DNA from: Acetobacteraceae bacterium B3987
Lineage (GTDB): Bacteria > Pseudomonadota > Alphaproteobacteria > Acetobacterales > Acetobacteraceae
Length of the DNA stretch: 64,000 bases
Direction: 5' to 3'
Assembly: GCA_026537415.1 (NCBI GenBank)
Contig: JAFNMF010000001.1
Span: 610 to 64,609, forward strand
The translations under genes were made by a program, and so were the position numbers. Shown one piece after another: positions 53,134-53,883 of the stretch. Under the pieces are notes generated by a model. That model was not told where the DNA came from, searched no databases, and was given only the letters and a program-made list of their open reading frames with translations. Numbering within the stretch: the first letter of the stretch is position 1; each line of letters opens with the position of its first letter.

Positions 53134-53883
53134 TCAGCCTGCCTGACGCATAGGGGGCGTTCCGTCAGAAAAGCCTTGGGCGGTAACATGGCTGGTATTG
53201 TTGTGCATTACGGCCGGGTCCTGAAGAATATAACCACGGCCCCACACAGTAGTGATCATATGCTCAGCTCCAAAACGCTGGAGTTTGCGGCGCAGTTTGC
53301 AGATGAACACGTCGATGATCTTCATCTCAGGCTCATCAATGCCGCCATAAAGGTGGTTCAGGAACATGTCCTTGGTAAGGACAGCCCCTTTGCGGAGAAG
53401 AAGCAGCTCCAGAATGGCGTATTCCTTGCTGGTCAAGTGCAGGAAGTGACCATTGACGCTGACCATCCGGCTTTCCAGGTCCAGTTCCAGCGGGCCGACA
53501 CGCAAGCGTGGCTCGGAGATGCCATAGGCACGGCGGGTGAGGGCCTGAATACGAGCTTGCGCCTCGCTCATGTCGAAGGGCTTGGTCACATAGTCGTCAG
53601 CACCAGCGGAGAAGGCGGCAACCTTGGTTGGGGAGTCCGTCCGGGCAGACAAAACCATGATGGGCGTCGAGATGCGGGAGCGTCTCAGCTGGCGGATCAG
53701 CTCCTCTCCCGGCAGGTCAGCCAACCCTAACTCGGTTATGAAAAGATCATAATCGTAGTGCTTGAACATGTTGAGGGCTTCGTCAGCGGTTCTGACTTGG
53801 TCGACCGCATAAGACGATTTCCCCAACACCTTCACCAGATGGTTCACCGCAACGCTATCGGTGTCAGCGATGAGAATACGCAT
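53134..53883 (-). CDS. ctrA: CtrA-family response regulator with degenerate receiver domain
   Basis: The 249-residue protein has an N-terminal receiver domain (about 1-120) and an OmpR-type winged helix with the CtrA fingerprint [18 protein letters not shown] and [14 protein letters not shown]. CtrA is the DNA-binding master regulator of the alphaproteobacterial cell cycle. The receiver departs from canon: the phosphoacceptor D51 is glutamate (ITELGLAD, E51) and the acidic pair D8-D9 is T8-D9; serine in VLSAR and lysine in VTKPF remain. The C-terminus ends QAG, not the AA tail of Caulobacter CtrA. ATG 53883 has GGGGAG upstream; the longer reading to 54078 is intergenic. Confidence 0.9.
   Translation of the reverse strand: [249 protein letters not shown]

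Follow-up and report, generated by a model that had tools for sequence, protein, structure and literature searches.

The window, which is the whole stretch of 64,000 nucleotides that was analysed, carries the genes ftsH, glmM and ctrA in this order between positions 49507 and 53883, with ctrA on the opposite strand. In several acetic acid bacteria ftsH is found about 1.6-4 kb from ctrA, and in several ChpT-bearing relatives chpT is located about 6 kb from ctrA. Although the ctrA reading frame extends without a stop as far as a GTG at 54078, the alignment with relatives begins at the ATG, which is taken as the start. The features of the gene are:

53137..53883, minus strand, ctrA coding sequence, 249 amino acids, from the open reading frame (stop TGA 53134-53136, ATG 53881-53883)
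53530..53883, minus strand, receiver domain, residues 1-118, with altered catalytic residues (PF00072 match and residue tables)
53857..53865, minus strand, codons 7-9, D-T-D of the acidic pocket, mostly E-D-D in ChpT-bearing relatives (residue tables)
53860-53862, minus strand, codon 8, ACC, threonine between D7 and D9
53731..53733, minus strand, codon 51, GAG, glutamate at the phosphoacceptor position (alignment with the aspartate of BasR)
53581..53583, minus strand, codon 101, the conserved lysine, retained (K101; sequence and residue table)
53218..53511, minus strand, winged-helix DNA-binding domain, residues about 125-222, with the CtrA fingerprint (sequence and alignment)
53137..53145, minus strand, C-terminal QAG (protein end RQAG), without an AA tail (sequence and genus alignment)

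The receiver domain is recognized by PF00072 with 83 bits (contig positions 54157-54486 of the host genome G000). The best of 89 families for the whole protein is NCBIfam NF045991, the Rhodobacterales model of CtrA, which covers residues 1-223 with an E value of 4.7e-86 in a full-length alignment, with a score of 288 bits that lies under the cut-off of 350. As the winged helix also displays the CtrA fingerprint, which a preliminary description of this DNA had read in the DNA-binding half, the protein is a CtrA ortholog, though not a member of the model named after the Rhodobacterales. The same description had reported a glutamate at the phosphoacceptor position and a threonine in the acidic pocket, and both readings hold. 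Residue 51 aligns with D51 of BasR in an alignment with the solved structure as well as with D51 of CtrA in Roseomonas-type relatives, and T8 interrupts the pocket. The combination of D51 with an acidic pair at positions 8 and 9, by which a phosphorelay receiver is recognized, is absent (E51, T8); the protein rather has the hallmarks of an aspartate-less receiver, a missing phosphoacceptor aspartate together with the loss of a second catalytic residue. S79 is retained.

The host genome (2.04 Mb in 30 contigs) is that of a Bombella-type acetic acid bacterium. Its 12 receiver-domain matches, 11 of them above the cut-off, are by our reading CtrA, two CheY-like proteins, one CheB-like and one NtrX-like protein, five other OmpR-type regulators and two kinases with an N-terminal receiver, of which the two CheY-like proteins and one kinase were checked against NCBIfam. 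None of the 12 is a C-terminal receiver on a kinase, the architecture by which CckA was judged, in this genome only; the CckA models match a 501-amino-acid receiver-kinase partially and far under the cut-off. No receiver protein of this genome scored best as CpdR or DivK, for which a search had been proposed. ChpT was sought with PF10090, which has no match at E 1e-3 in the host genome and among 14 control genomes matches only Caulobacter. Of 12 HATPase matches, 11 were scanned against NCBIfam (all but L049): the best matches of six are PhoR, ChvG, CheA, ParE, MutL and HtpG, with only MutL and HtpG above the curated cut-off, and the remaining five are other kinases. A single CtrA was recovered, which rules out a second canonical copy in this genome. 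With neither a ChpT match nor a kinase with C-terminal receiver nor a second CtrA, the uncoupling of CtrA from CckA-ChpT suggested in the preliminary description is well supported for the host genome.

Other components of the circuit are less informative. GcrA is present in the host and matched in 49 of 49 genomes, by a model that also matches the control Sulfolobus, and the SciP family PF06627 is above its cut-off in none of the 49, ChpT-bearing ones included. The CckA profile NF046020 matches all 150 genomes of the family sample, none above the cut-off, and does not discriminate, as it also picks up generic hybrid kinases. The host genome shows no enrichment of full CtrA boxes (TTAA-N6-8-TTAAC; 4 versus 14 for the reversed control), and a scan for GANTC and half-sites upstream of ctrA gave no clear pattern.

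Within the genus, each of 11 genomes has one CtrA match at E 1e-60 (partial in G032), with glutamate at residue 51 in seven and alanine in four. As six genomes besides the host carry E51, encoded by GAG in G118, G150, G151 and G153 and by GAA in G152 and G157, a sequencing error at codon 51, raised earlier as a possible objection, is excluded. Alanine occurs in the Bombella-type loci L347, L348 and L350 (genomes G155, G156 and G154) and in L188, with the codons GCG and GCT and with the DNA-binding domain and the presumed dimer interface retained. In Bombella dulcis TMW 2.2559 (L204, about 3001-3752; the same gene as L018, G032) A51 is accompanied by a frameshift near residue 94 that splits the receiver from the DNA-binding half; seen in a single assembly, this frameshift is possibly a sequencing error.

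The substitution extends far beyond the genus. Among 150 Acetobacteraceae genomes, 121 have a CtrA match at E 1e-60, and 12 of the other 29 encode a CtrA-like protein judged by its recognition region, two of them doubtful with 38% identity (G004 and G089), which gives 133 genomes with a CtrA-like gene, the doubtful two included and four second copies dropped. ChpT was counted as present at a PF10090 E value below 1e-5, to which G038 was added (4.2e-5; a frame of 264 amino acids about 6 kb from ctrA). Where ChpT is present (77 genomes), residue 51 is D in 76 and E in one; with only a weak match (8 genomes) it is D in six, E in one and A in one; with no match (48 genomes) it is E in 27, D in 15, R in three, A in two and unread in one. 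All five catalytic residues (7, 8, 9, 51 and 101) are canonical in 74/77, 4/8 and 5/48 genomes, respectively (74/76 and 4/7 for the first two classes without G004 and G089), and in none of the 28 members of the acetic acid bacteria clade. The loss of ChpT is associated with the loss of D51 with a Fisher p of 6e-16, a value that ignores relatedness and counts as ChpT-less nine weak-match genomes, several of which pass the Pfam cut-off; eight of these nine have a CtrA-like gene and are the class shown apart above. The weak match of G089 sits in a frame of 227 amino acids and may be a real ChpT.

A second view is offered by the best 80 of 503 confirmed relatives, in which named loci of acetic acid bacteria have E in 33, A in two and D in one of 36 cases, and the others D in 43 and E in one of 44; the 36 loci were picked by record title and some belong to the same assemblies as the family genomes, so the two sets are not independent. 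Among these 80, E51 occurs in Acetobacter, Gluconobacter, Asaia, Komagataeibacter, Novacetimonas, Acidomonas, Tanticharoenia, Brytella and Bombella, and also in Gluconacetobacter entanii. D51E is thus clade-wide, neither private to the host genome nor a sequencing error. That the change is a peculiarity of one reduced genome is ruled out by this distribution. The alignment across the family that had been proposed for positions 8, 9 and 51 shows that the pocket, too, is altered in many acetic acid bacteria, with S, N or P at position 8 in most genera other than Acetobacter; at least eight named Acetobacter loci among the best 80 of 503, and the genome G009, combine E7-D8-D9 and K101 with E51.

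Several genomes depart from the general pattern. Komagataeibacter intermedius (L260) has D51 with an altered pocket, and G133 has E51 despite the presence of ChpT. In G013, G039, G041, G087 and G109 all five residues are canonical without a ChpT match; some of these cases may be due to missing contigs or to a divergent phosphotransferase, but G013 is 99% complete. A divergent CtrA-like branch (G023, G068, G140 and G096; L154, L157, L158 and L162) carries R51 (E51 in G023), A79 and G, D or N at position 101; G023, G068 and G140 have K at position 111. In 17 of the 150 genomes, several of them incomplete, the search gave no CtrA-like gene. Six, G029, G116, G077, G144, G100 and G117, have neither a CtrA-like gene nor a flagellin match, five being 98-100% complete and G144 85%. 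Motility as the sole reason for keeping CtrA is rejected, with eight E51 genomes lacking a flagellin match; the 17 genomes without a CtrA-like gene comprise nine without and eight with flagellin. The 29 flagellin-less genomes in this comparison were read directly in 20 cases and obtained by subtraction in nine.

The order of events was approached with a tree of one gene, ftsH, from 69 genomes, built by a quick search. In the acetic acid bacteria clade and its nearest relatives on this tree ChpT never rises above the weak level, and the weak matches of G001 and G009 lie in frames of 647 and 693 amino acids. Just outside the clade, G071, G132 and G056 have no ChpT match, D51 and a glycine at position 8, a state which suggests that the relay was lost before E51 arose. 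By parsimony, E51 arose from D at the root of a 34-row clade (support 98), again in G081, G148 and G133, and ambiguously in G023, i.e. about four to five times in the family; three to four of these events fall in lineages without ChpT. As G133 has ChpT, not every change to glutamate followed relay loss. Within the 34-row clade, E reverted to D four times and changed to A twice. The association of ChpT loss with D51 loss is strong by counts but involves few independent events: only three well-supported independent pairs are available, and the sign test on them is not significant.

What has the receiver kept? Residues K87, D96, D97, E107, R111 and R118 presumably form the contacts of the active alpha4-beta5-alpha5 dimer, as we take from the structures of ArcA and PhoB. 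All 28 clade members share the same residue at positions 96, 97, 111, 114 and 118, and 27 of them do so at each of 87 and 107, a degree of conservation equal to that in ChpT-bearing CtrA. The presumed interface is intact even in G066, in which positions 7-9 read H-N-H, residue 51 is alanine and residue 101 leucine. For the receiver, six groups of acetic acid bacteria give ratios of mean dN to mean dS of about 0.03-0.13, compared with 0.03-0.11 for three D51 genera that served as controls, rough values given that dS exceeds 1 in three groups; the receiver is under purifying selection. These observations oppose the idea that the receiver is a vanishing remnant next to a DNA-binding domain that alone matters, which we regard as unlikely even though catalytic residues were lost in many lineages, the receiver exceeds the DNA-binding domain in dN by a factor of 19 in Bombella (1.1-6.9 in five further groups and 1.3-2.3 in the three D51 genera), and both the B. 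dulcis frameshift between the two halves and the 17 genomes, several incomplete, without the gene would fit such a decay.

The catalytic positions behave differently from the interface, as position 8 is acidic in two and position 51 is D in four of the 28 clade members. These low numbers, together with the lack of a PF10090 match in the host genome, make it very improbable that CtrA is still phosphorylated, be it at another residue by a different kinase or a small phosphodonor, or through a divergent phosphotransferase in place of ChpT. Such a route would account for the retention of D9 in 23 of the 28 members and of K (18/28) or K or R (27/28) at position 101, and substitute phosphotransferases have been proposed for chpT-less relatives in the available passages of one study (PMC2877005).

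Constitutive activity through E51 was the functional prediction of the preliminary description, and the present data weaken it. A glutamate that mimics phosphoaspartate and locks CtrA in the active state, evolution having fixed a laboratory allele, would fit the predominance of E among the non-D readings at residue 51 (29 of 35), the multiple origins of E51 and the intact pocket beside it in the eight or more named Acetobacter loci and in G009. In Caulobacter and Rhodobacter capsulatus, D51E serves as a phosphomimetic allele, according to the accessible parts of two reports (PMC12186491, PMC6363796). On the other hand, alanine replaces it in four of the 11 genus genomes and in G066, D51 has returned beside an altered pocket (G060, L260), arginine occupies the position in the divergent branch, and one of the changes to E took place in the ChpT-bearing G133. 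Moreover, glutamate is the commonest replacement in aspartate-less receivers anyway, and ChxR still bound DNA after its glutamate had been exchanged for Asp or Ala, as stated in excerpts of PMC4395418. A hard-wired phosphomimetic thus appears a possible, though not the favoured, account. As A51, D51 with an altered pocket (L260) and R51 occur, residue 51 is not strictly required; E51 probably helped in an ancestor and would since have ceased to be strictly necessary, and phosphorylation independence is the probable reading.

We consider it likely, judging from comparative sequence data, that CtrA of the window is an ortholog turned into a phosphorylation-independent regulator with an atypical, pseudo-receiver domain. 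For the acetic acid bacteria as a whole, CtrA probably works without a phosphorylation switch, because the phosphate site is usually lost and ChpT was not found. The combination of decayed catalysis with a preserved contact surface is the main argument for a phosphorylation-independent dimer, with which it is consistent as a contrast rather than as a proof. In the scenario we propose, an ancestor would have lost ChpT and hence the CckA-ChpT relay, after which, close to the base of the acetic acid bacteria, glutamate may have taken the place of D51, a change tolerated or favoured as glutamate can partly imitate phosphoaspartate. The acidic pocket would then have decayed in most genera, with S, N, P or T at position 8, and residue 51 may in places have changed again to A or back to D. 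The receiver, with its fold and the alpha4-beta5-alpha5 contacts, would serve as a dimerization module, and the dimer would keep the winged helix bound to DNA with no need of a phosphoryl signal; control would lie in CtrA levels, through transcription and proteolysis, or in a partner protein. A bolder version, in which ChpT-less Acetobacteraceae repeatedly re-invented D51E to obtain a permanently active CtrA and rebuilt control at synthesis or turnover, is put forward tentatively and strikes us as less likely than not; if true, all acetic acid bacteria would run the CtrA circuit without a phosphorelay.

Compared with CtrA of Roseomonas-type Acetobacteraceae, the window protein shares the DNA-binding fingerprint, a full-length alignment and the presumed dimer-interface residues, but lacks the phosphoacceptor aspartate and has an altered acidic pocket, in a genome without a ChpT match or a C-terminal-receiver kinase. 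By descent it is CtrA; by function, we infer, an atypical response regulator. In this it resembles ChxR of Chlamydia and HP1043 of Helicobacter, OmpR/PhoB-type regulators without phosphoacceptor that are described as phosphorylation-independent in the passages available of PMC3960148, and ChxR likewise carries Glu at the phosphoacceptor position (PMC4395418, in part). Unlike ChxR and HP1043, which are other regulators in other phyla, the change can here be followed through a whole clade in a single orthologous gene, alongside the loss of a known relay. The laboratory CtrA(D51E) has the same substitution at the same position, but was made in relay-bearing species, whereas here ChpT is not found and the pocket is altered in most genera.

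Erosion of the relay in Rhodospirillales is already published: ctrA, gcrA and ccrM were reported in 72-82% of genomes and chpT, cckA and divL in 27-36% (PMC8116508, 2021), a source whose available passages do not mention residue 51. The main text of Brilli et al. contains neither 'D51' nor 'aspartate', and a term search found CtrA absent from two papers on pseudo-receivers. A literature search conducted mostly outside subscription journals brought up no description of D51E as a natural, clade-wide state of CtrA, nor did the 12 papers listed of 487 include essentiality data for ctrA of Gluconobacter. In Caulobacter, phosphorylation is described as the one indispensable layer of CtrA control in the accessible text of PMC2877005. 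This layer appears to be missing from the CtrA of a large group, many species of which are cultured and used in industry (Acetobacter, Gluconobacter, Komagataeibacter). The natural series from D51 with ChpT through D51 without ChpT, E51 with acidic pocket and E51 without pocket to A51 allows one to test how a master regulator escapes its relay and what pseudo-receivers do.

With respect to the C-terminus, the AA tail is lacking as described before; the RQAG end (window positions 53137-53160 with the stretch before it) is common to seven of the 11 genus genomes in the alignments shown, preceded by a variable stretch, and is possibly a functional tail.
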